DNA of 64,000 nt from contig JAAWBD010000085.1 of the NCBI GenBank assembly GCA_022792495.1, forward strand, positions 1 through 64,000. The letters run 5' to 3'. Source of the stretch: Oscillospiraceae bacterium. Its GTDB lineage: Bacteria > Bacillota > Clostridia > Oscillospirales > Oscillospiraceae. The stretch's first letter is position 1, and each line of letters starts with the position of its first letter. The position numbers and the translations under genes were made by a program. Below, in pieces: positions 15,721 to 28,449 of the stretch. The notes under the pieces are model-generated. The model worked only from the letters and a program-made list of their open reading frames with translations, ran no database searches and had not been told where the DNA came from.

Positions 15721-16398
15721 TTACACCGTCCCCTTTCTCTCATAGCTGGAAAGCTTTTTCTCCCCCCAGCTCTGCACCCGGGTAAGCACAGTGCAGAACA
15801 TCAGGTAGATAAAGGCCACCTCCAGATAGAGGGCCAAGGGCTCGTAATAGAGGGCGTTGAGCTGCTTGGTGGCCATCATCATCTCCGCCACCGTCACCAC
15901 CGAGGCCAGAGAGGTATCCTTCACCATGGCGATCAGTGAGTTGGCCAGAGAGGGAAAGGCTGTACGCATGGCCTGGGGCAAAATAATCCGGCGGATGATC
16001 TGCAGATAGCTCATGCCCACGCAGTATCCCGCCTCCATCTGTCCCCTGGGCACCGACTCCAGCGCCGCCCGGATGATCTCGGCGGCATAGGCTCCCTCAT
16101 TGATGGAGAAAACCGCGATGGCAGCCGGGAAGGGATCAATGACCACCCCCACATGGGGAAGGCCAAAAAACACCACAAACAGCTGCACCAGCAGCGGTGT
16201 CCCCCGAATGACCCAGATGTACAGCCGGCACAGCTGCTTCAGCCCCCCGACATTGGCGAACTGCACTAACGCCACCGCCACCGCCAGCACCATGGCCAGA
16301 GAAAAGGAGATGGCTGTCAGGGGAATGGTTCGAACCAGGCCCGGGATCAGGATCTTGGGGAAGGAATCGATAAGTATCTCTACTATTCGAGCGTTCAT
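15721..16398 (-). CDS. Polar amino-acid ABC transporter, permease
   Basis: This 225-aa membrane protein of the HisM/GlnP type has about five helices and the ABC inner-membrane motif region MEAGYCVGMSYLQIIRRIILPQAMR. The start RTIPLTAISFSLAMVLAVAVALV is characteristic. The track ORF adds 39 upstream residues without membrane character; the ATG at 16398 gives the usual length. Its ribosome-binding site (AAAGGA) is about 14 bases away, which is long, so the start carries some doubt. It is the first gene of the operon. Confidence 0.92.
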   Translation of the reverse strand: MNARIVEILIDSFPKILIPGLVRTIPLTAISFSLAMVLAVAVALVQFANVGGLKQLCRLYIWVIRGTPLLVQLFVVFFGLPHVGVVIDPFPAAIAVFSINEGAYAAEIIRAALESVPRGQMEAGYCVGMSYLQIIRRIILPQAMRTAFPSLANSLIAMVKDTSLASVVTVAEMMMATKQLNALYYEPLALYLEVAFIYLMFCTVLTRVQSWGEKKLSSYERKGTV

Positions 16399-16612
16399 AC
16401 CAGGAAAAACAGTCCTTTCCAAATACACCTGGAGAAAAAGGGTACTTTTTCCTCCGTTTTCACTTTGGTAATCATACAATAAAAGAGGAGAAAAGTCCAG
16501 CCTTAAATCGGCCAAACCCTTTGCGTCCCTATTGTATTCTGCCGTCGCAGATATGGCAAATACTCATTTCAAATATCAAGATATGCCTAAATAGAATATC
16601 CCGTCTCCTATA

Positions 16613-16644
16613 CAAAAAAGCTCCTGCGGCAAAACCGCAGGAGC
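16613..16644 (-). terminator. Terminator of tRNA-Gly
   Basis: GCTCCTGCGG and CCGCAGGAGC with a 5-base loop are followed by TTTTTT on the minus strand, five bases after the tRNA 3' CCA. Confidence 0.88.
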
Positions 16645-16648
16645 CCTT

Positions 16649-16722
16649 TGGAGCAGGTGAGGGGAATCGAACCCCCGTGTTCAGCTTGGGAAGCTGACAT
16701 TCTACCATTGAACTACACCTGC
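16649..16722 (-). tRNA. tRNA-Gly (anticodon CCC)
   Basis: The minus strand folds into a cloverleaf: acceptor GCAGGTG/CACCTGC, D-arm with AATGGTAGA, anticodon stem TCAGC/GCTGA with loop TTCCCAA (anticodon CCC), and a T-arm containing GGTTCGATTCC. The 3' CCA is encoded. It decodes GGG codons, which are common in this GC-rich genome. It has its own promoter and terminator. Confidence 0.95.
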
Positions 16723-16747
16723 ATACCATTTAGAGGTCAGCTAAGGT

Positions 16748-16776
16748 ATATTACCACATTTTCCCCAAAAAGGCAA
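16748..16776 (-). promoter_or_regulatory. Promoter of tRNA-Gly
   Basis: On the minus strand TTGCCT and TAATAT are 17 bases apart, placing the start about 20 bases before the tRNA 5' end. Confidence 0.65.
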
Positions 16777-16842
16777 GAGGTTTTTTTGCCGAATCCTGCC
16801 CCAAAACAGAATAAATCATTTTCTCTTTTTCGCTTCCCAAAA

Positions 16843-17142
16843 TCAAAGCAGGTAATTGTTCTCCCGGTCTGCCTTTTGGAACCCCACCAGCTTATAAGTG
16901 GCGTATCCTCCGGCCACCAAAGGCTCCCGCTCGCAAAGAGCCTCCGCCTCCTCCCTGCTCTCCGCTTTCAGGATATACATCCCCGCCATCCCCGGGTATC
17001 CTTTGAATACGCCGCAGATCTCCAGCCTTCCCTCTTCATCCAGACTCCTTATATTTTCAACGTGCTCCGTCACAATCTGCTTGGTGAGTCTGTTGTATGT
17101 CTTTGTCTTTTCAAGCATTACCATATACATCTGTTTTTCCAT
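16843..17142 (-). CDS. YciI-like protein
   Basis: This 99-aa protein has the small alpha-beta dimeric fold of the YCII family: YMVMLEKTKTYN, a central DEEGRLEICGVFKGYPGMAGMYIL, and ESREEAEALCEREPLVAGG, which resembles the usual EAxxxxxxDPF/PY tail. Family members are small cytosolic proteins of largely unknown or muconolactone-isomerase-like function. It sits alone between a promoter and the tRNA, so its role cannot be inferred from neighbours. Confidence 0.75.
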   Translation of the reverse strand: MEKQMYMVMLEKTKTYNRLTKQIVTEHVENIRSLDEEGRLEICGVFKGYPGMAGMYILKAESREEAEALCEREPLVAGGYATYKLVGFQKADRENNYLL

Positions 17143-17174
17143 GCCCTCTCCCCCATTAAATAAATATCTATTTT

Positions 17175-17203
17175 ATTTTATCATACCCCACTTTCCAATT
17201 CAA
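17175..17203 (-). promoter_or_regulatory. Promoter of the YciI-like gene
   Basis: On the minus strand TTGAAT and TAAAAT are separated by exactly 17 bases, about 30 bases upstream of the ATG. Confidence 0.6.
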
Positions 17204-17225
17204 TCTTTTTTCCATCCTACGTAAA

Positions 17226-17248
17226 GGTGACGCCCACTGGGCATCACC
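17226..17248. terminator. Hairpin at the end of the oxidoreductase gene
   Basis: GGTGACGCCC and GGGCATCACC pair with one mismatch and overlap the stop codon. The minus-strand T-run is short (TTTAC), so it is a weak terminator. Confidence 0.45.
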
Positions 17249-18564
17249 TATTTTTCTCCCCCGCCCCAATCCTTGGCGGCAGGATCGTTCAAAAGCCTTC
17301 CCCTCTCGTCAAACCGGGAGCCATGGCAAGGGCAATCCCAGCTGTGCTCCCGGGGATTCCATTTGAGCACACATCCCATATGGGGACATCGACGCAGGCT
17401 TGGGGTCAGCAGCCCCACAGTGGAGGAGAGAATATTGGCAGCCAAAGGTATCGGCTTCATGGCACGGGCCGGATCAAAAACCCAGCCCCAGTCCGCCTTT
17501 CCTTTTGTCACCATATCCCGAAGGAGAAGGGCTGCCGCCATGGAGGAGGTCATCCCCCACTTGTTGAAGCCGGTGGCCACATACCACTCCGGTACAGCGG
17601 GAGAATAGGCTCCGATATAGGGCGCCCCGTCCAGGGTCATACAGTCCTGGGCCGCCCAATGGGCCACCTCCCGGCTTTGCGGCCAAAAGTAATTGGCCGC
17701 CTGGCGCAGCTCCTCCCAGCCTCCTCCCCGCTTTCCCGTTCTGTGTCCCCCGCCCCCCAGCAGGAGCAGCTCCCCCGCCCGCCGGAAGGACAGACCGTGC
17801 TCCCTCTCGTCAATATACATCCCCCGGGGGCTCCAGGCCCCCTCCAGGGCCAGAACATAGGAGCGATCCTGATACATCTTCATAAAGTAGCAGCCCCGCC
17901 GGTCTATGAAGGGAAAATGGGTACAAAAGATGATCCTTTTGGCCCGGATGATCCCCCGGTCGGTGAAAGCGATCCCCCCCTTCACCTTCCGAACCATGGT
18001 CTCCTCCCGAATGTTCAGCCCCGGCAGGATCCCCTTCAAAAACCGCAGGGGATCAAACTGGGCCTGCCCCGGCATCTCAAGAGCCCCCGCCACCGGAAAG
18101 GGAAGCTCTGTCCCCCCGTGCCACTCAGTTTCACAGCCGATGCTCTCCAGGATCTGCTTTTCCCGCCAGAGCTTTTTGGTATCCCCCAGGGTATAGACAA
18201 AGGCCGGCTTTTCCACCAGCGCACAGTCCAGCTCCCGCCCCAGGACCTTGTATTCTTTCAGCCCCCGCTGATTGGCCCGCAGGTAATCCGCTGCCCCCTC
18301 CCGCCCCCTGTCTCTGGTCAGCTCCTGATAAATCAGTCCATGCTGCACGGTAAGCTTGGCGGTGGTATTTCCGCTGACTCCGCTCCCCACCCGACGGGCC
18401 TCCACCACCAGGCAGTCCACCCCTGCCTTCTTCAGCTGATATGCGCACAACAATCCTGCCAGTCCGCCGCCGATAATGAGCACATCGGTGACCGTATCTC
18501 CCTCCAAGGAGGAAAACCGGGGCAGCTGGGTCTCCTTATGCCAGATAGACTGCGCTCTCTCCAT
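17248..18564 (-). CDS. FAD-dependent oxidoreductase with C-terminal Rieske domain
   Basis: This 438-aa protein has a DAO-type FAD-binding fold from about residue 28 (VLIIGGGLAGLLCAYQLKKAG, VVEARRVGSGVSGNTTAK). It ends in a Rieske [2Fe-2S] domain whose ligands are visible as CPHMGC and CPCHGS (CxH...CxxH). This architecture is a known cytosolic iron-sulfur flavoprotein family in Firmicutes with no firmly assigned substrate. The SD AAGAGGTG lies in the 3' arm of a terminator-like hairpin directly upstream, which may control its translation or transcription. Confidence 0.9.
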   Translation of the reverse strand: MERAQSIWHKETQLPRFSSLEGDTVTDVLIIGGGLAGLLCAYQLKKAGVDCLVVEARRVGSGVSGNTTAKLTVQHGLIYQELTRDRGREGAADYLRANQRGLKEYKVLGRELDCALVEKPAFVYTLGDTKKLWREKQILESIGCETEWHGGTELPFPVAGALEMPGQAQFDPLRFLKGILPGLNIREETMVRKVKGGIAFTDRGIIRAKRIIFCTHFPFIDRRGCYFMKMYQDRSYVLALEGAWSPRGMYIDEREHGLSFRRAGELLLLGGGGHRTGKRGGGWEELRQAANYFWPQSREVAHWAAQDCMTLDGAPYIGAYSPAVPEWYVATGFNKWGMTSSMAAALLLRDMVTKGKADWGWVFDPARAMKPIPLAANILSSTVGLLTPSLRRCPHMGCVLKWNPREHSWDCPCHGSRFDERGRLLNDPAAKDWGGGEK

Positions 18565-18604
18565 AAAAAATCACCTCTTGGGGGTAGTATCCTCCCCCAA
18601 GAGG
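18563..18604 (-). promoter_or_regulatory. Terminator-like hairpin that holds the oxidoreductase ribosome-binding site
   Basis: CCTCTTGGGGG and CCCCCAAGAGG form an 11-bp perfect stem with a 9-base loop. On the minus strand the 3' arm ends AAGAGG, followed by TGATTTTTT and then the ATG. The same bases therefore serve as the stem of an intrinsic terminator for the 5'-nucleotidase gene and as the Shine-Dalgarno site of the next gene. Confidence 0.7.
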
Positions 18605-18617
18605 CGATCCATTCCTT

Positions 18618-20537
18618 TTATCTGGTTTTTCTCCGGCGGCTGCGGGACAGAAGCCGCCGAACCAGCAGACCCACCCCCGCCGTCAACGCCAGAAGCACCG
18701 CCAGGGCCGCCAGAGTGATCCATCCTGGAGCCCATACCAGCTCCACCGGGTTCCAGCTCCAGCTCACAGCCTTTCTCCCATCGGGAGCTCTATACCGCTC
18801 CGGGATCCCCTCCTGTCCAAAGCTTCTCAGGTATGCGGCCAGCGCGTACCACTCCTTGATCTCATTTCCCTCTCCATCCCGGAGAATGCAAGCGTCAAAA
18901 TCGGTGACCGGGCTCCCGTCCGCCATCTTGGGCTCCAGCGAGAGCAGCCCCATGGATTTGTCCTTCACCGTCCCCAGCATCTGCGCGGAGTACATCCCCG
19001 TCACCACCCGGTAGAGCTGGTCGTCATGGATGTCCTCAAAGGTACTCTCCGCCAGCACATGGCCGGGAGACATCTCCCCGGCCGCCTCCCGGTGGAGCCT
19101 GATCCCGGTCACCCGGTCAAAGAACATCCGGTGGACATTGAAGGAGTAATCCACCCCCGCCATATAGAGCTGGGCAGCGTTCATTATGGGGGTCACCGAA
19201 GCGTCCACCTCAGCAGCCGCCCGTAGCTCCCTCCCCGTCAGGTAGACCCCCACCAGGGGAAAGCCGGAGGTTCCGTCGCTCCCCACCCCCATGGACAGTA
19301 CATCAAAGGCCATTGAGGTAGTGATACTTCCCCGGGCCAGACCGGCCCGGAGCACTCCGTCCGCAGTAACCGTTACTGTGGGGATATCAGGCCCGTCCGC
19401 CTCCAGATTCTCCGTAGCCCAGAGAAAGGCGTCGGCCACCAGCTCCCCCAGAGCATTCCCCATCTGTACCCCCGACACTGGGGTGGACAGGTCAAACTCC
19501 GTATGGGTCAGCACCTGGTCGTAGGTAAGCCCATACCGGGACAGATAGGTCTGCCCCACCTGCTCCTTCCATCCCTCCACCAGATCCCTGATTTCCGGAT
19601 CCTCCGGCAAACTCTCGTCAATAGGGATCAGCCTATACTCCACCAGGCTTTTCTCTCCCGTCTTATCCCAGCGTAACGTAAGACTTCCCAGATTTCTGCA
19701 GTAGGGCCCGGCAGAGACGATATAGGTATCCCCCACCACAATGGGCTCAGAGAGGGTGGTGTGGGTGTGACCCGAGACGATAACGTCGATACCCTCAACC
19801 GCCCTGGCCAACTCATAGTCCTCCCCCTTCCCTTCCTCGGTTCCCGAGTGGGACAGGCAGATGATAAACTCCGCCCCCTGTCCCCTCAGCCGGGCCACCT
19901 GCTCCTGGGCCGCCTGGGCCATATCCTCCAGTTCGAAGCCGGATGTGGGCGCGCAGTCGTCGGAATCCACCCCCATCAGCCCAAAAATTCCATAGGTGAT
20001 CCCGCCCCGCTCCAGGAGTATATTTCTGGTCACCCCATAGCTCTCCATGGCCTCCAGTATAAATTCCCCGTCCGGGTCATCTGCCGCCGGCCTATAGTTT
20101 GCCTGAACCACCGCCGGAAGGGCCCCCTGCCATCCCTCCGCCGCAGCATTCAGCATCTCTCCAAAGCCTCTTCCCCGGTGGTCAAACTCGTGGTTTCCTA
20201 TGGTGGTGGCGTCATAGCCCAGCATCCCCATGGTTCGCAGCTCCGCCCCCCGGGTGGTATACAGGGTCTGGATCAGAGAACCGATGGAAAAGTCCCCTCC
20301 GTCCAGTGTCAGTGCGTTGGGATACCGCTCCCTCTGTTCCTCCAGCGCAGAGGCCAGCCTGGCATATCCCCCGCTCTCCCCGCCTCCCTCCTCCGGCATC
20401 GGGAGGAAATGTGAGTGAAGATCGTGGGTAAACAGGATCGTAGTATCATTCTCCGGCGTCGGCGGCGTGGCCCACGCGGGTAAAATAAGCCCCAGACTCA
20501 GTAGCGCCGCCAGGATCAGCGTTATTTTCCTTCTCAT
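18618..20537 (-). CDS. Membrane-anchored 5'-nucleotidase/2',3'-cyclic phosphodiesterase family
   Basis: This 639-aa exported enzyme has a signal peptide (residues about 1-23). A metallophosphatase domain follows, with FTHDLHSHFLP, DGGDFSIGS, GNHEFDHRGRG, CLSHSGTE and VSGHTHTTLSEP as the five metal-site blocks. The 5'-nucleotidase C-terminal substrate domain covers about 330-570 (NALGELVADAFLWA, GVDYSFN). A C-terminal transmembrane helix (about 607-630) plus Arg-rich tail replaces the LPxTG anchor seen in many Gram-positive homologues. It probably hydrolyses extracellular nucleotides or UDP-sugars for salvage. Confidence 0.92.
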   Translation of the reverse strand: MRRKITLILAALLSLGLILPAWATPPTPENDTTILFTHDLHSHFLPMPEEGGGESGGYARLASALEEQRERYPNALTLDGGDFSIGSLIQTLYTTRGAELRTMGMLGYDATTIGNHEFDHRGRGFGEMLNAAAEGWQGALPAVVQANYRPAADDPDGEFILEAMESYGVTRNILLERGGITYGIFGLMGVDSDDCAPTSGFELEDMAQAAQEQVARLRGQGAEFIICLSHSGTEEGKGEDYELARAVEGIDVIVSGHTHTTLSEPIVVGDTYIVSAGPYCRNLGSLTLRWDKTGEKSLVEYRLIPIDESLPEDPEIRDLVEGWKEQVGQTYLSRYGLTYDQVLTHTEFDLSTPVSGVQMGNALGELVADAFLWATENLEADGPDIPTVTVTADGVLRAGLARGSITTSMAFDVLSMGVGSDGTSGFPLVGVYLTGRELRAAAEVDASVTPIMNAAQLYMAGVDYSFNVHRMFFDRVTGIRLHREAAGEMSPGHVLAESTFEDIHDDQLYRVVTGMYSAQMLGTVKDKSMGLLSLEPKMADGSPVTDFDACILRDGEGNEIKEWYALAAYLRSFGQEGIPERYRAPDGRKAVSWSWNPVELVWAPGWITLAALAVLLALTAGVGLLVRRLLSRSRRRKTR

Positions 20538-20613
20538 CCAAAATCGCCTCCTCCCCTCTATTGTGCCACAGCCCGCCCCAAAAGAAAAGCACTTTTTCCC
20601 AAAACATCAAAAG

Positions 20614-20649
20614 GCCGCCGTCCTCCCCCATAAGAGGGAGGGCGGCGGC
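20614..20649 (-). terminator. Terminator at the end of the pilus operon
   Basis: A GC-rich 14-bp stem (GGCCGCCGTCCTCCC side) sits about 20 bases past the last sortase stop, followed by CTTTTGATG on the minus strand. Confidence 0.7.
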
Positions 20650-20670
20650 AATAGAGAAAAACAATGAAAC

Positions 20671-21282
20671 TCAGATTTCTTCCGCCACCCGCTCACAGCG
20701 GATGGTGGTGCGGTACTGCCCACCCAAAGTACAGGTAAACAGACTCAATGCCCAGTCTCCCGACAGCATCCGCGCCGCCTCCTCTGGGTTCAGCTGCTCC
20801 TTCTCCGCCACAGCGTACTCGAAGCAGTTTCCATCGATGTCGATGAACTCCACCCGATCCCCAATCTCCAGTTGGATCAGCCCCCCAAAGTGGTGGGGAT
20901 AATTGTGGGCGCACACCACCAGATCGTCCAGATAGGCCGACCCCGCATACCGGCACGGGGCCACCTTCAGCTTCTTGTAGCTCCAGGTTCGCATCACCGG
21001 CAGATCAATGCCGATGGCCGGAATACTGATATAGCCGATGTATTCCTCCCCATCCAGCTCCACCGCCGGCATCTCCATCTCCGGCGCCAGCTCATGATCC
21101 GGGATCATCCCCTCGGGAAGCTCCCGCTGAGCCGGGATGATCTGCTCCATCTGCCGCATCACACTCGCCACGCTCTCAGCCGCCCGGCTCTCGTCCCAAA
21201 GGTTATACCCGGCCAGCCCAGCGGCTCCCAGCAGCAGGAGAAGCCCCAGCGCCATCAGCAGCGTTCCTTTTTTATTCCTCAT
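20671..21282 (-). CDS. Sortase (second of the pilus locus, subclass uncertain)
   Basis: This 203-aa protein has an N-terminal membrane helix (LLMALGLLLLLGAAGLAGYNLW), the sortase start GYISIPAIGIDLPVM, catalytic His in VVCAHNYPHHFG, catalytic Cys in LFTCTLGGQYRTTIRC and Arg four residues further. It lacks the C-terminal helix of pilus class C sortases and may attach finished pili or other LPxTG proteins to peptidoglycan. The ATG at 21282 lies inside the end of the ancillary pilin gene; the longer track ORF is rejected because the extra 43 residues are Cys/Trp-rich nonsense. Confidence 0.85.
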   Translation of the reverse strand: MRNKKGTLLMALGLLLLLGAAGLAGYNLWDESRAAESVASVMRQMEQIIPAQRELPEGMIPDHELAPEMEMPAVELDGEEYIGYISIPAIGIDLPVMRTWSYKKLKVAPCRYAGSAYLDDLVVCAHNYPHHFGGLIQLEIGDRVEFIDIDGNCFEYAVAEKEQLNPEEAARMLSGDWALSLFTCTLGGQYRTTIRCERVAEEI

Positions 21283-22357
21283 CCTCGCCGCTCCATCTCC
21301 GCCGCCGGGCAATCCCCAGCAGCAGCAACGCCGCGCCCCCCATGGCCAGCAGGGGCACCGGCCACCAGAGCTGTCCTGTCTGGGGCAGCCTGGCCAGAGG
21401 CGGCTCCTCATCCTCCAGCTCCTCTTCCTCGGAAGGCGGCAGCTCCTCCTCCCACCCGCTCAGGGGGGGCTTCCAGTCCGTGATGTCCTCTTCCTCTGGC
21501 GGCAGCTCCTCCCTGTTCTCCGCAGGCGGCGTCTCCGGGCCTCTCTCCAGATAGCTGTTGGTGATCACAAAGGTGATCCCCCCCTGGGAGACCGATACGC
21601 TGTACCCCTTGGACTCCCGCTCCGCCACCTGCCAGTTCCCTCCGGCGTCCAGTCCCGTCCAGTCGTGCCGCCAGTTGTTCCCTTGGTTCAGCTCCACGCT
21701 GTCATAGACCTGGCCATCCCGGAGCAGCTCCACCGTCACCCTCTCCGGCCGCTCCTCCTCGTGCCCCCGGTCCTCCCAGACCTTCAGCACTCGATAGCTC
21801 ACCGTCTCCGGATCGGTGGAATCTCCCCCGCCGGTAGACCTCCGCCCATACTTGGCGTAGGTCACCACATCCGCCTCCCAACTGCGCCCGTCCGCAGTGT
21901 AGGGTAGCGACAGCAAAAAGGGAGTTGGAGTGTACACATACCCATCCAGACTTCTGGCATCCCCCACGATCAGATACAGCCCCTTCTCCAGCTGGGAGAA
22001 GCTCACCCTCCCCTCCCCGTCAGTCAAGCCAGCGGTGGTAGGCAGGATCTGATCCCGGGCCACATATCCCGATAGGGTCATGGCTCGAGCCAGCCAGTCG
22101 GAGGCAGTCACCTGATACTTCCGGTACTCCTCCAGCAGTCGGAAGGTCATCGCGTCCGTGATCTCAGCCACCCGGTAAAGGCGGAACTCCACCCCCTCCA
22201 TGGCCCGATCCTCATCCACCACATAGCTCAGCTCCAGGGAGCACTTCTCCACCTCGTCCAGCGCGGCGGCAAGACCCCTCCCAGGCAGACAGGCTCCGCA
22301 CAGCACAAAGCACAGCAGAAACGCCGCCACGCGCCGGAGCTCAATTTTTCTTCTCAT
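21272..22357 (-). CDS. LPxTG-anchored ancillary pilin with Cna-B domain
   Basis: This protein of about 361 aa has a signal peptide (LLCFVLCGACLPGRGLAAA). An N-terminal pilin-like domain (LELSYVVDEDRAMEGVEFRLYRVA) and a CnaB-type domain (YRVLKVWEDRGH ... VTVELLRDGQVYDSV ... GYSVS) follow. A Glu/Pro-rich stalk precedes the sorting signal LPQTG, hydrophobic helix and RRRRW tail. It is probably a minor or base pilin joined by the locus sortases. Two ATGs are possible; the downstream one (AGGG seven bases upstream) is used. It overlaps both neighbouring sortase genes. Confidence 0.85.
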   Translation of the reverse strand: MRRKIELRRVAAFLLCFVLCGACLPGRGLAAALDEVEKCSLELSYVVDEDRAMEGVEFRLYRVAEITDAMTFRLLEEYRKYQVTASDWLARAMTLSGYVARDQILPTTAGLTDGEGRVSFSQLEKGLYLIVGDARSLDGYVYTPTPFLLSLPYTADGRSWEADVVTYAKYGRRSTGGGDSTDPETVSYRVLKVWEDRGHEEERPERVTVELLRDGQVYDSVELNQGNNWRHDWTGLDAGGNWQVAERESKGYSVSVSQGGITFVITNSYLERGPETPPAENREELPPEEEDITDWKPPLSGWEEELPPSEEEELEDEEPPLARLPQTGQLWWPVPLLAMGGAALLLLGIARRRRWSGEDEE

Positions 22358-23258
22358 GTTCCGATCCCTGCCTTTCCCCACCCTGTCCGGGCGGCGGAGT
22401 GGTCTCCATTCTCTTTCCCCTTTTGATCCGTTTTCCGGATCTTTTCTTTTGGGGGCTCCTGGTCATGGACCATACCATCAAAAGCGCCAGCATAGGCGCC
22501 GCCGCGATGGGGGCCACGATCACCGGGTCAATGCGCATGGCCTCCGCCGTGACCCGTACCACCGCCGCGTTCTCCCGGTTGGCCACCCGGTGTCCCCGCA
22601 CCAGCAGCCGGTGGCTGTTCACCCCATAGGGCGTACATGTCACCAGCGTGCAGTAGTCCTTCCCCTCCTCAATGGCCAGATCCTCCAGCTCCGTGGGCAA
22701 CACGATGTGGATCTGATCCACCTCATAGGTCATGGTCTCGTTCAGGATCTGCAGCAGGAAGATATCCCCCTCGCTCAGCCGGTCCAAATCGGTAAAGAGC
22801 TTCGCGCTGGGCAGCCCCCGGTGCCCCGACAGCACGCTGTGGGTGGTGACCCCCCCTACCGGCAGGGAGGTTCCCTCCAGATGCCCCACCGCGATCTGCA
22901 GCACCGCCTCGTCGGTTCCATGGTAGATAGGCAGCTCACAGTGGATCTCCGGGATACTGATATACCCCATCACCCCTGTACCGGAAACATCCAGCAGGCT
23001 GTTGTACCACTCACGCTCCTCCTCCGGCATATAGAGCGGATTGCTCTTCTCCGCCAGGCTCCTGTTGTACTCCCCCGCCGCCCTCCACATCTCCTCATAG
23101 AGGGCACTGTCCATCTCATGGATGCTCTCGGCATAGCTGGCAATGGCCCGGGACTGATGGAAGGAATTCCAGTAGTCGCTGACCGTGGGATACAGCAGCA
23201 GCCCCACCCCGATCAAAAGGGTCAGACTCAGGAGCAGATTGACCAGTTTCTTTTTCAT
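22341..23258 (-). CDS. Class C (pilus-polymerising) sortase
   Basis: This protein of about 305 aa has an N-terminal helix (LVNLLLSLTLLIGVGLLLYP). The lid-type segment before the domain includes DVSGTGVMGYISIPEI. Catalytic His is in LSGHRGLPSAKLF, and Cys/Arg are in TLVTCTPYGVNSHRLLVRG. A C-terminal transmembrane helix (about 265-283) plus basic tail are hallmarks of pilin polymerases. It links pilin subunits through LPxTG threonine to pilin lysine. It lies between the major and ancillary pilin genes. Confidence 0.93.
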   Translation of the reverse strand: MKKKLVNLLLSLTLLIGVGLLLYPTVSDYWNSFHQSRAIASYAESIHEMDSALYEEMWRAAGEYNRSLAEKSNPLYMPEEEREWYNSLLDVSGTGVMGYISIPEIHCELPIYHGTDEAVLQIAVGHLEGTSLPVGGVTTHSVLSGHRGLPSAKLFTDLDRLSEGDIFLLQILNETMTYEVDQIHIVLPTELEDLAIEEGKDYCTLVTCTPYGVNSHRLLVRGHRVANRENAAVVRVTAEAMRIDPVIVAPIAAAPMLALLMVWSMTRSPQKKRSGKRIKRGKRMETTPPPGQGGERQGSEHEKKN

Positions 23259-23342
23259 AAGGGTCACTTTCCGCCGCCGCGCCCGAAGGGATCCACTCCC
23301 CCCGGACGCGGCAGATCAGCTTTTCAAGCTCTATGTGTTTCC

Positions 23343-24818
23343 TCAGTCCTCTTCCTCAGCGCCCATGCGCTTCTTGGTCACCAGCAGGATCCCAGCCCCC
23401 AGGGCCAGCGCGCCGCCGGTAATGTAGAAGATAGTGGTGCCGATACCGCCGGTGCTGGGCAGCTCCGCGCCGGTCAGGTTCTCCACCCGGAGTCCTCCGG
23501 ACAGATAGACCGTCTTGCCGTCGACCTCGTTGGTCTCCACCTTGCCCAGGCTCTTCTCCGGGCCGACCTCCACAAGAACGCGCTCATTCAGCTTGTTGTA
23601 GCCGCTGGGCTGCTTGGTCTCCTCCAGGTAATAGCTGCCCTCGCCCAGGCCCTTGATGGTGGCGATGCCGGCGGCGATAACGGTGGTGCCGGTCTCCCCC
23701 TCCTCAGCGGGACGGTAGTAGCTCCCATTCACCTCGTCCTCCACGAACACCAGGGAGACAGCCTCCCCCGCCTCAGCGGTGGTGTAGAGAGCGAACTCGG
23801 CCCCCGTCAGGATCTGGTTGCCGGAGGCCACGCTGCTGGTCTTGGCCAGATCAAACTCAAACAGCTCGGAATCGGTGGTGCTGGGCTTGGTCTCCACGGT
23901 GTGGTTGTTCTCGCCGTAATCCATGTGGGCCACGTTGTTCACCGTGTCCACCGTCAGCGCCTCAGCGGTGATGGTGGCGGAGTAGGTCACCACGATCTGG
24001 GTCTCCTCGGTGATGGTGTCCAGATAGCTCTGGGCAAATACCAGATGGAAGGTGCAGCCGTCGGTCAGCCCATCGGTGACCACAGTGTAGTTGGCGGCGT
24101 CCACACCGGCCACGGCCACATCATTGTTGAAGCTCAGCCCCTTGCCCATGGCATCGTGCATCACATAGGCCTCCGCCCCCGGCTGGGCGGTGATGGTCAC
24201 CTTATAGTCCTTGCTGTCACCCACGCTGGGCTGGTTCTCGTCGGCCTTCTTGACCTCCTCCTTCACGATGACCGGCTTTTTGTTCTTCTCGGTGATGGTC
24301 ACCGTGGTGTTGGTGGTGTCCAGGGCACACAGGCTGCCCACAGTGGAGGAGACCAGGTAGTAACCCAGAACCAGCTCTCCAAAGCTGGCAGTGGTGGTAG
24401 CCTCCGCCTCAGTCCCCTCGGGAGCCGCCTCAGTCACGGTGACCGCGTCAGCCTTCACGCTCTTCTCCACGGCCCAGTCCATGGCGGCCTTGGCCAGGGC
24501 CTTCACATCCGCCCCGTCCTTCCAGGTCACATAGCCCTGGTCGTCCACGTTCACATAGGCGGCGCCGGGGGCTCCCTCCGCTACAAAGCCGGCCCAATTG
24601 GCGTTGACCTTATAGGAGTGGGGTGCGTTTTCCTCATTGCTGCCCTCTCCGCCATAGCTTTCCAGGTCGAAAAGCCGGTAGGCCTTGTACTCCTGCCCAT
24701 AGGGAGCCTTGTCAATGGTGATGCTGGCTGTTTCTCCCGCGGCAAAGGCGGGGGCGGCCAGGCACAGGGTCATGACCAGGGCCAGCGCGGCGCTGGCAAG
24801 TCTCTTCATCGTTTTCAT
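23343..24818 (-). CDS. Major pilin, isopeptide-forming fimbrial subunit
   Basis: This 491-aa exported protein has a signal peptide (RLASAALALVMTLCLAAPAFA). Fimbrial D1/D2 domains with isopeptide features follow (KDYKVTITAQPGAEAYVMHDAMGKGLSF). The SpaA-type C-terminal domain has the E-box YYLEETKQPSGYNKL. The sorting signal is LPSTGG, hydrophobic helix and KKRMG. It forms the pilus shaft, polymerised by the adjacent class C sortase. Start choice: AAAGGAG lies 8 bases before the ATG at 24818, while the track begins at a TTG six codons earlier inside that site. Confidence 0.92.
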   Translation of the reverse strand: MKTMKRLASAALALVMTLCLAAPAFAAGETASITIDKAPYGQEYKAYRLFDLESYGGEGSNEENAPHSYKVNANWAGFVAEGAPGAAYVNVDDQGYVTWKDGADVKALAKAAMDWAVEKSVKADAVTVTEAAPEGTEAEATTTASFGELVLGYYLVSSTVGSLCALDTTNTTVTITEKNKKPVIVKEEVKKADENQPSVGDSKDYKVTITAQPGAEAYVMHDAMGKGLSFNNDVAVAGVDAANYTVVTDGLTDGCTFHLVFAQSYLDTITEETQIVVTYSATITAEALTVDTVNNVAHMDYGENNHTVETKPSTTDSELFEFDLAKTSSVASGNQILTGAEFALYTTAEAGEAVSLVFVEDEVNGSYYRPAEEGETGTTVIAAGIATIKGLGEGSYYLEETKQPSGYNKLNERVLVEVGPEKSLGKVETNEVDGKTVYLSGGLRVENLTGAELPSTGGIGTTIFYITGGALALGAGILLVTKKRMGAEEED

Positions 24819-24906
24819 TGTTTTGTCTCCTTTCAATATGTGGTGCCTGAGGTGAATCTGTCTCTTTTGTGTATTCCTCTTGCTCTCTCTCCTTGCCGGG
24901 GAAGGT

Positions 24907-27900
24907 TTATCCCCATACCCCCTCCCCCTCTCTCTGACTCCACTGCTTCTTTTTATACATCAGGAAAGCCGCCCCCATCAGGGTCAGGACTCCCATTGTA
25001 TACCAAAGGGTGGTTCCGCTGCCGCCTGTGGCAGGCAGCTCGTAGTCGGCGGTGTTGATAAAGGTCACCCATGTCAGCTTCCCCGGCGTCACCGCCCCGG
25101 AGGTCACTGCCGACACGTCGGCTCCAAACCGCTCCACCTTCTCCTCGCCGTTCTCTCCCACCACCGTGTGGATCTCGGTACGGTAGCCCTGCTTGAACTC
25201 CCCCACCTCAGTGATGGTGTACCGGGTGTTCTCCGGCAGATGGTGGATCACCAGGATCTCCCCCGGCTCCAGCTCAAAGATCCCGTCGTTTCCGATGGCG
25301 TCTCCCCCATCCCGGTCGGAGGTGCTGATCTGTCCGTCCGGATCCCGGTGGAGGTACTGGATCTCATAATTGTCCGCCCCGTCCAGGCCCAAGGTGAACC
25401 GGAAGGGCGTATTGTCCTCCATGCCGCCCATCTGCTTCTCGATCCGGATAGTCCCCGTGTCCTGTTCGATCAGATCCTGGATCTGGGTCTCCAGATCCAC
25501 TCCCACCACCGTGGGCAGGGTGTACTGCATCCAGCAAGTGGAGCCCGAGGCTCCCCGCTCCGTGTAGAAGAAGGTGAGCCGGTAAGTTACCCGGGTATCC
25601 GGGGCCCACTCGTCGGTGCTGATATAGTCCCAAAGATCCACATACTGGCCTGCGGAGGGATGCACACCACCGATATCCACGATCTGCCGGGAGCCCTTCA
25701 GCGTCTCATTCCCGTCCCCATCCTTCTCCACCTGGCTGAGGAACACCCACATGTCATCGTCGCCGAAGAAGTAGTACTCCAACGGCCCGATATAGTTCTT
25801 GGTCAGCTCAAAGTCCACGGCAAAATTCATGCCGAAGTAGCCGTTGTGATCCTTTCCGTCATCGCTGTAAGGCAAGCTGGCCGCGTTGGCCTGCCCGTCA
25901 TTGGCCCGCTTCACCACATCCTTCTTGCCAAAGATGATGTCGTGTCCCTTCGCGCCCCAGGTGCTGGCCGAATCCATGGGCCAGAAATCGTTGCTCCAGA
26001 CCCCGGAGTTCAGCCGGAAGCTGTCCAGCTCCCTGGCCACAGTGCCGGGGATCTGGGTCAGGGTGTAGGTATCCCCCACCCGGCTGAATTGGATCCCGTC
26101 AATCTCCTGGAGCAGGGTCTTTCCCTCCTGGGCCCCGCCGCCGAACAGGACAGGCCCCACGATATCGTCGTCAAAGAACACATCATTCCCCTGCTCGTTC
26201 ATCCCCTTCACCAGCCCATAGGCACCGCCCTTAAAGGTGATATCCACCCGGTTGGGCCACTTGCCGCTTGCGTTGCGCTGGTTGATCAGATTCCCCAGGG
26301 AATCGGTGCCATTTTTCAGGCTTTCCGTTGTGCCCGTATTGGCATTTCCAAAGGCAAACCGGGCCTTGCCCCAGGGAATGTCCCCCCCATTGATCCCGAA
26401 GTTCTTGCCATCTCTGCTTGTGATCATATTTGTGGCGCCCACCCCGTGGGTGCCGTCGCTGATATCGTAATCATAGAAATCCGCCGGGAAAACCTCATCC
26501 TTTTGCTGGGGGTCGTAGATCAGCCGGATCACATCCTCCCCCTCCACCAAAATGTAGTTCTCATTGGCCTGTGCCGTCTCAGGGCGGTTGGTAAACCGGG
26601 TCACCCCCTCCTCATAGGGGAGCACCAGCCAATCCGCCGCTTCCGTACTGGTAGGATCTCCCTGTCCCCCCTTCTGGATCCAGATCTCATGGACTCTATA
26701 TTGGATATCCTGCACATTGCTTACCATATTAAAGTACTGCAGGCCGGGGGCGTCGAAATATTCAAACCGGCTGCCCTTCCGGGGATCATAGCCCCCCTCC
26801 TCGCCCCGCTTGTAGATCTCCGTCAGGATCCGCTGGGTCTCCACCTGACCGTCCGCCTTCACATAGATATTACGGACAACTGCGGAGGTCGCTCCCTTTT
26901 CGGGGAAGCTGCCCCCCACCTTCCGGCTGGTGTCCATCACATCCAGCGCGGTCCCGCTACCGTTCGCGGTGACCAGCCGATCCATCCAGGCGTAGTACTG
27001 CACATAGAAAACCACGTTGGCCCCCTGGGTCACCGAGTAGCCTACAGTGCCCCGCCGCTGGGTATATGCCTTAAAGTGGAGCTCCATGGCCTCACTCTTC
27101 TCCTCAGCGGTTTCCCCCTCCAGCTCCAGGGTCATCAGCCCCAGATCCTCGGGGCTGTCCAGCATCTCCTGGAAGGCCTGGGTGGGCTCCACCTCCAGGC
27201 TCACCTCGCACCCGGTCAGATCCACGGCCTCTCCGTTGTAGGTCAGGGTGTAGTCCAGAGCTCCCACCATCATGACCTCGCCGTCCTCGGCCGCCAGGCT
27301 GGCGTACTCATCATAGGCCTCCATATCCTCCGACTGGGTGACCGCCAGCTGGAACCCGGTCTCCTCTCCCTCCGTCTGGGGCACCAGGGCGATCCCTTCC
27401 GCCCGAAGGGTCAGGAGCACCGCTCCGTCCTCGCTCTCCGCGGTAAAGCTCTCCTGCAGCTCCACCGCCTCCGGCTCGGGCAGGGGCTCTTCCAGGCATT
27501 GCTCCACATGGGTGTGCTCGGGAATGTTACACTTCAGCTCCCCATCCTCAAAGAAGCACTCCTCCACATGGGTGTGCTCCATCAGGAAGCCGCAGTAATA
27601 ATGGATCTTCTCCTCCAGCTCCAGGGCCAGATAGCAATTGTCGTCGTGGGTATGCTCCTCCAGAGCGCAGGTAAGCGTCCGCAGCTCCTCCGTCTCCTCC
27701 GCCCCCTCGGCGTAGCAGCTCTCACTATGGCTGTGGCCCTCCCTCTCTTCCAGAGTGCAGGCCTCCCGGGTCACCGTCTCAAAGCAGGCCTCCCCGTGGC
27801 TGTGGCCTTCCCTTTCCTCCAGAGTACAGCTCAGTTTCTCGCTCCACTCGTAGCAGCTGTCGCTGTGCGCATGGGGAATGGACTCGGTGACAGTCTCGGT

Positions 27901-28449
27901 AACGGTCTCCATCACAGTTTCGGTCACCAGCTCGGTGACGGCCTCGGTCTCCACCACCGTCTCGCCGTTCTCGTCCACTCTCTCCCTCTCCACATCCACG
28001 CTGATCTCCCGGCTGATTTCCCGGGGAACCTCCCGGGTCACCTCCCGCTCCACGGTCTCCTCTGTCTCGGTGCAGATCAGCTCCCCCCGAAGGGAAACGT
28101 AGCAACTCTCATCATGGCTGTGGCCCTCCCCCTCAGTGAGAGCACAGGTCAGCTCCTCAGTCTCTCCCGCCCCACAGCTCTCACTGTGCGTATGGCCCTG
28201 GGCCTCCGCCAGCTCGCAGGTCGGCTCGCCGCTGCGGGTCACCGTCTCCACAGTGTAGCATTCCTCAGTGTGGACATGCTCGGGGATCTCGCACTGCAGG
28301 GGAGTGGTCATGGTGATGGCGGGAAGGATCAGGGCGTAGGTAGTGCAGAACACGACCACACCGGCCAATCCGGTGACCACCTTCTGCCAGCGGCTTTCCT
28401 TCCGCTGGGTAGCCAGATACTGCTTCGCCTGCCGTCTGACTCGTTCCAT
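24907..28449 (-). CDS. Giant LPxTG adhesin/tip pilin with HxH-C repeats and fibro-slime domain
   Basis: This 1180-aa surface protein has an unusual N-terminus: about 23 basic residues, then one hydrophobic helix (VVTGLAGVVVFCTTYALILPAI). Residues 53-318 carry about nine repeats of the form C-x-(I/L)-x(3-6)-H-x-H-x(3)-C (for example CEIPEHVHTEEC, CALTEGEGHSHDESC), split by a Thr/Glu/Val-rich stalk. A mixed region follows. A fibro-slime/PA14-like ligand domain lies near 800-950 (YYFFGDDDMWVFL, VDIGGVHPS). A SpaA-like domain and LPATGG sorting signal with helix and KKKQW tail end it. It is probably the adhesive pilus tip; the ligand is unknown. Confidence 0.85.
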   Translation of the reverse strand: MERVRRQAKQYLATQRKESRWQKVVTGLAGVVVFCTTYALILPAITMTTPLQCEIPEHVHTEECYTVETVTRSGEPTCELAEAQGHTHSESCGAGETEELTCALTEGEGHSHDESCYVSLRGELICTETEETVEREVTREVPREISREISVDVERERVDENGETVVETEAVTELVTETVMETVTETVTESIPHAHSDSCYEWSEKLSCTLEEREGHSHGEACFETVTREACTLEEREGHSHSESCYAEGAEETEELRTLTCALEEHTHDDNCYLALELEEKIHYYCGFLMEHTHVEECFFEDGELKCNIPEHTHVEQCLEEPLPEPEAVELQESFTAESEDGAVLLTLRAEGIALVPQTEGEETGFQLAVTQSEDMEAYDEYASLAAEDGEVMMVGALDYTLTYNGEAVDLTGCEVSLEVEPTQAFQEMLDSPEDLGLMTLELEGETAEEKSEAMELHFKAYTQRRGTVGYSVTQGANVVFYVQYYAWMDRLVTANGSGTALDVMDTSRKVGGSFPEKGATSAVVRNIYVKADGQVETQRILTEIYKRGEEGGYDPRKGSRFEYFDAPGLQYFNMVSNVQDIQYRVHEIWIQKGGQGDPTSTEAADWLVLPYEEGVTRFTNRPETAQANENYILVEGEDVIRLIYDPQQKDEVFPADFYDYDISDGTHGVGATNMITSRDGKNFGINGGDIPWGKARFAFGNANTGTTESLKNGTDSLGNLINQRNASGKWPNRVDITFKGGAYGLVKGMNEQGNDVFFDDDIVGPVLFGGGAQEGKTLLQEIDGIQFSRVGDTYTLTQIPGTVARELDSFRLNSGVWSNDFWPMDSASTWGAKGHDIIFGKKDVVKRANDGQANAASLPYSDDGKDHNGYFGMNFAVDFELTKNYIGPLEYYFFGDDDMWVFLSQVEKDGDGNETLKGSRQIVDIGGVHPSAGQYVDLWDYISTDEWAPDTRVTYRLTFFYTERGASGSTCWMQYTLPTVVGVDLETQIQDLIEQDTGTIRIEKQMGGMEDNTPFRFTLGLDGADNYEIQYLHRDPDGQISTSDRDGGDAIGNDGIFELEPGEILVIHHLPENTRYTITEVGEFKQGYRTEIHTVVGENGEEKVERFGADVSAVTSGAVTPGKLTWVTFINTADYELPATGGSGTTLWYTMGVLTLMGAAFLMYKKKQWSQREGEGVWG

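Follow-up and report, generated by a model that had tools for sequence, protein, structure and literature searches.

A probable forespore promoter nested in a ribosome-binding-site-sequestering, terminator-like hairpin ahead of a YhfW-like Rieske oxidoreductase gene in an Oscillospiraceae bacterium

Introduction

In Bacillus subtilis, a large hairpin ahead of sigG (spoIIIG) has been proposed to block translation of the RNA that reads through from spoIIG, and this hairpin cannot form in RNA produced from the promoter of sigG itself; early sigma-G activity is harmful (PMC5942855). A comparable arrangement has been described for gene e and I-TevI of phage T4, where a long early RNA hides the ribosome-binding site and the RNA from the late promoter, made without the structure, is translated (PMC3014915). 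Among open-licence papers, we found no sporulation case other than B. subtilis sigG, and our search of that literature returned no description of such a layout for yhfW-like genes or spoIIR, nor as a general feature. In B. subtilis, yhfW encodes an FAD-Rieske protein and belongs to the sigma-F regulon (PMC3416734, PMC7317962); YhfW has been reported in the spore coat, and loss of the gene slows germination (PMC7317962). Here, we examine a hairpin located directly ahead of a YhfW-like gene in a 64,000-nt stretch of DNA from an Oscillospiraceae bacterium (contig JAAWBD010000085.1, positions 1 to 64,000; hereafter, the window), and compare it with the corresponding regions of orthologs and of other forespore genes.

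Results

The element occupies the minus strand, with a 5'-nucleotidase gene before it and the Rieske gene after it (Table 1), and its parts follow one another in mRNA sense as TAA-AAGGAATGG-ATCGCCTCTTGGGGG-AGGATACTA-CCCCCAAGAGGTGAT-TTTTT-ATG. The perfect 11-bp stem reported in a first-pass annotation of this DNA, formed by CCTCTTGGGGG (18604-18594) and CCCCCAAGAGG (18584-18574), was recovered together with its T6 run, and it can be lengthened to 15 bp if one G-U pair is allowed (18608-18594 with 18584-18570) around a 9-nt loop, leaving a gap of 9 nt between the nucleotidase stop codon and the 15-bp stem. The coordinates likewise agree with the earlier observation that the 3' arm carries the Shine-Dalgarno sequence (SD) of the Rieske gene, with the ATG directly after the T-run. 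This hairpin is more than a chance occurrence: the fold of the 101-nt region has a z-score of -3.3 (computed on the plus strand, where the palindrome is identical), and none of 200 shuffles was as good. Moreover, the pairing between promoter spacer and leader, at -32.3 kcal/mol, is the strongest among 135 orthologs, and of 228 ordinary gene starts sharing this geometry, just 2 (about 1%) reached -20 kcal/mol. The terminator scan did not list the hairpin, probably because the 9-nt loop exceeds the limit of 8 set in that scan. A separate hairpin, AGGTGACGCCC-ACT-GGGCATCACCT, is found right after the stop codon of the Rieske gene (17222-17252) with a T-run (ATTTTTCT) on the plus strand, an orientation resembling that of a terminator acting on the opposite strand.

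Table 1. Features of the predicted promoter-hairpin element and its flanking genes (window coordinates)
Feature	Position	Strand	Basis
Metallophosphatase / 5'-nucleotidase gene, upstream neighbour, candidate source of read-through RNA	18618..20537	-	ORF; Pfam Metallophos and 5_nucleotid_C; behind codirectional sortase/pilin cluster
Nucleotidase stop codon TAA	18620-18618	-	
-35-like element GGAATG of predicted forespore promoter	18610..18615	-	Two-block ortholog motif; whole-site leave-out score (see text)
5' arm of hairpin, ATCGCCTCTTGGGGG; also most of the putative promoter spacer	18594..18608	-	Sequence and fold
Hairpin loop, AGGATACTA, 9 nt, with -10-like element GATACTA (18591-18585)	18585..18593	-	CATAMTA-like sequences at the same place in orthologs
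Predicted start of transcription, roughly 7 nt beyond the -10, within the 3' arm	18577..18579	-	Expected from usual promoter spacing
3' arm of hairpin, CCCCCAAGAGGTGAT, including SD AAGAGGTGAT (18579-18570)	18570..18584	-	SD opening-cost computation
T6 run from SD to ATG; candidate U-tract of an intrinsic terminator	18565..18570	-	Terminator score; kept in L002
FAD-dependent oxidoreductase with C-terminal Rieske [2Fe-2S] domain (YhfW-like)	17248..18564	-	Pfam DAO 5.5e-36, Rieske 3.4e-7; orthologs
ATG of Rieske gene	18564-18562	-	

The upstream regions of 190 orthologs, gathered from genome searches and contigs, were submitted to a two-block motif search seeded with the sigma-G consensus. A motif of the forespore (sigma-F/G) type, [G/T]GHATA-N16/17-NCATAMTA, was found 5' of the start codon at 9 bits or above in 162 of these regions, ending mostly 15-33 nt before the ATG, and its -10 block carried 7.6 bits of information as compared with 3.5-4.4 bits when training was done on shuffles. 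The site in the window, GGAATG-N17-GGATACTAC, matches this ortholog motif (GHATR-N16/17-CATAMTA) near the ATG; with close relatives left out of training, it scored 13.3 bits (p = 0.0015, from 2000 shuffled versions of the 130 nt around it). In this layout, the 5' arm would act as the spacer and the loop as the -10 element, with the predicted start located in the 3' arm at the position of the SD. A sigma-70 scan of the 3' part of the nucleotidase gene detected no minus-strand promoter between 18564 and 19100. The first-pass annotation had pointed out that there is no room for a separate promoter after the hairpin, which is indeed the case, but a promoter-like site sits inside the hairpin itself. 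Because the -10 of the motif shared by the orthologs coincides with the loop, transcription is predicted to begin beyond the 5' arm—the very outcome that had been named as refuting the initial proposal, and which is now the better-supported reading. The notion that expression of the Rieske gene requires read-through and opening of the stem together is probably wrong; the hairpin very probably contains the gene's own spore-stage promoter.

As to which sigma factor would recognise this promoter, the bin of the organism (68% complete) contains SASP, spoIIR, gpr and spoVT genes, and a sigG-like gene is present in all ten same-genus genomes searched and absent from this 68%-complete bin. The terminal A of the -10 element and the 16-nt spacer of the orthologs are closer to the SASP and gpr promoters than to that of spoIIR, pointing to sigma-G. 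A weight matrix trained on SASP promoters scored the orthologs as a group at 9.5, against 4.7 for shuffles; the window site received only -0.3 bits and was not recognised, so that this matrix failed as independent proof of the site. Compared with SASP-type promoters, the window site has a spacer that is one base longer and a -35 element reading GGAATG instead of the GCATA type. Owing to the matrix score, we assign the window promoter to sigma-G tentatively, with sigma-F as a possible candidate.

Computed folding energies separate the two kinds of transcript that could reach the Rieske gene. Opening the 10-nt SD would cost 14.4 kcal/mol in read-through RNA versus 1.5-2.6 kcal/mol in RNA starting at 18581-18577, suggesting that the former should be silent and the latter translatable. 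The terminator score was +31.6 for the 15-bp stem, in which a GC-rich stem runs directly into the T-run, and about 0 for the 11-bp stem; since T6 scores clearly positive with the 15-bp stem only, termination at this position is plausible but not certain. Both the occlusion of the SD in any RNA arriving from the nucleotidase gene and the terminator character of the hairpin, as first annotated, are supported by these values. A role as RNA thermosensor was also considered and is unlikely, with the opening of the SD still costing 11.5 kcal/mol at 55 °C. We propose that RNA from the nucleotidase gene and from the pilus cluster behind it would fold the full hairpin, hide the SD of the Rieske gene and probably also terminate at T6, while RNA from the nested promoter would lack the 5' arm and leave the SD free. 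Synthesis of the Rieske protein would be restricted to the time at which the forespore sigma factor is active, and its gene would be insulated from neighbouring transcription. On the whole, we consider it probable that the forespore promoter of this YhfW-like gene is nested in an SD-sequestering, terminator-like hairpin.

The genomic context bears on the question of which gene the hairpin serves. A sortase/pilin cluster (20671-28449, minus strand) runs codirectionally toward the nucleotidase gene, and the nucleotidase gene that closes it is a plausible source of the unwanted RNA; the cluster comprises two sortases, Cna_B and SpaA-type pilins, and a large protein with a DUF7601 domain. Within the genus, adjacency of nucleotidase and Rieske genes is limited to the window and one close relative. 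Same-genus nucleotidases with no Rieske gene behind them lack this hairpin, and Rieske genes located behind unrelated or divergent neighbours keep the promoter and often the hairpin. The hairpin therefore belongs to the Rieske gene and not to the nucleotidase gene, to which the first-pass annotation had assigned it. Stems are little commoner behind codirectional neighbours than otherwise (23% vs 15%, with crude gene calls).

The T6 directly after the stem and the positive score of the 15-bp stem would also suit a conventional intrinsic terminator for the pilus/nucleotidase unit whose overlap with promoter and SD came about through genome compaction, with SD occlusion as a by-product; T-runs are, in addition, somewhat commoner after the stems found at spoIIR (p = 0.04) and spoVT (p = 0.009). 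However, YhfW-like genes show no excess of T-runs (p = 0.19), and L016, L031 and L091 have none, yet the SD core is part of the 3' arm of all 15 stems, and other nucleotidases of the genus end differently. We thus hold this explanation to be unlikely. Quite improbable, in our assessment, is a promoterless Rieske gene under a terminator and SD lock, expressed solely via regulated read-through and stem opening, be it by attenuation or by translational coupling to the nucleotidase. Such a model would accommodate the strong stem, the T6 run, the SD in the 3' arm and the short gap after the nucleotidase stop codon, but it conflicts with the promoter motif in the great majority of orthologs and with the rarity of the nucleotidase-Rieske adjacency, and an Rfam scan of 16000-21500 returned a tRNA (16652-16722) as sole match, with no riboswitch or catalogued leader RNA.

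The predicted promoter lock gains support from the orthologs. Spacer-to-leader pairing at p ≤ 0.05 occurs in 23% of the orthologs in which the -10 ends within 21 nt of the ATG, in 7% of those with a -10-to-ATG distance of 31-40, and in 5.7% of the 228 ordinary genes matched for geometry (23% vs 5.7%, Fisher 1.3e-4); overall, 19% of YhfW-like genes display spacer-to-SD complementarity above chance. GC-matched swapping of spacers among orthologs yielded z = -5.6, or -4.8 without the genus of the window. A plain swap of spacers and leaders across genomes (z = -6.7) was set aside as GC-confounded, and GC-matched swaps and local controls were used instead. The 14 strong stems comprise 9 unrelated arm sequences, and their 3' arm always includes the SD; this speaks for a lock made of RNA more than for an operator bound by a protein. 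A repressor could make use of the perfect palindrome that surrounds the -10, but we regard it as highly improbable that the inverted repeat acts as DNA, serving a dyad-binding regulator as an operator over the promoter, and not as an RNA structure. The arm sequences are entirely different from one lineage to the next (9 clusters in the 14 strong cases, and 15 among 24 in spoIIR), which makes them unfit for one protein, and the constant feature is pairing with the SD. Since a significant stem is lacking in about 80% of the orthologs, we view the hairpin as a recurrent option and not a universal trait of this gene. Within the window's own clade we found no compensatory changes; L002 and L027 each break one pair.

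The same layout recurs at other forespore genes of related gut bacteria. Pairing with the leader at p ≤ 0.05 was detected at 35% of 107 spoIIR sites (binomial 1.7e-21; GC-matched z = -10.8), 28% of 32 sigG sites (z = -3.9) and 37% of 30 spoVT sites (z = -2.6), against a chance level of 4-6% in gpr, SASP and ordinary genes—the sequences are related, so these pairing p-values overstate independence. With 4% each, gpr and SASP showed no excess over chance; their promoters are usually further from the SD. At spoIIR, perfect stems around the -10, followed by SD, T-run and ATG, are seen in L321, L314, L325, L383, L323 and L247, and the 24 strong stems represent 15 unrelated arm sequences. Because the arms shift in register, the consensus fold of 11 spoIIR hairpins is weak, with compensatory changes at 4 of 7 pairs. 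We see about an even chance that, in clostridia of the Oscillospirales/Lachnospirales type, low-dose forespore genes (spoIIR, sigG, spoVT and yhfW-like) repeatedly evolve a spacer complementary to their own SD, such that the promoter would double as a read-through lock, with gpr and the SASP genes, whose products are abundant in spores, going without it.

Some further regularities were noted in these leaders. The spacer of the spoIIR sigma-F promoter is complementary to its own SD in approximately one third of the species, L386, L379 and L342 being further cases. SASP leaders of the window's own genus (L060, L063-L067, L069, L075 and L086-L088) share an almost unchanging block, GCTCGGATTCTCGATCC, which follows the -10 immediately, and spoIIR leaders of the genus (L249, L251, L255 and L267) contain a conserved block, CTCACATAGAAAGGTGTG, before a TTG start codon.

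Discussion

A compact genome offers little space to terminators, and the expression of cell-type-specific spore genes still has to be correctly timed. If the promoter itself supplies the hairpin, leaky expression would be prevented without any regulator, and the recurrence of this layout at four unrelated forespore genes, with differing stems, turns the idea into a testable general principle. Should the general rule prove true, cell-type-specific expression would become leak-proof by this means. A promoter nested in a hairpin could also serve as a simple design for leak-proof expression cassettes.

Among known elements, an intrinsic terminator resembles the window hairpin in having a GC-rich stem followed by T6. 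In the window, however, the 3' arm is an SD, the start codon comes at once afterwards and a promoter-like site lies inside. The encoded protein is similar to B. subtilis YhfW in combining an FAD-dependent oxidoreductase with a C-terminal Rieske domain, and the B. subtilis gene belongs to a forespore (sigma-F) regulon; orthology is judged here from domain order and promoter type, and the -10 elements of the orthologs are more sigma-G-like. With gene e of phage T4, the locus would share a promoter overlapping the 5' strand of the structure, which in the window is recognised by motif and paired with a predicted start. The T4 case depends on a phage late sigma factor and has no described T-run, whereas a sporulation sigma factor is expected to act in the window. 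The likeness to B. subtilis sigG extends to a forespore gene behind a codirectional neighbour and to a proposed read-through-blocking hairpin that is absent from RNA of the gene's own promoter, features that are predicted for the window. Here, the gene is a different one, the -10 would form the loop and a T-run precedes the ATG; the B. subtilis stem is described as having 20 bp or more. Drawing from these parallels, we propose that the window element works like the hairpins of sigG and T4 gene e.
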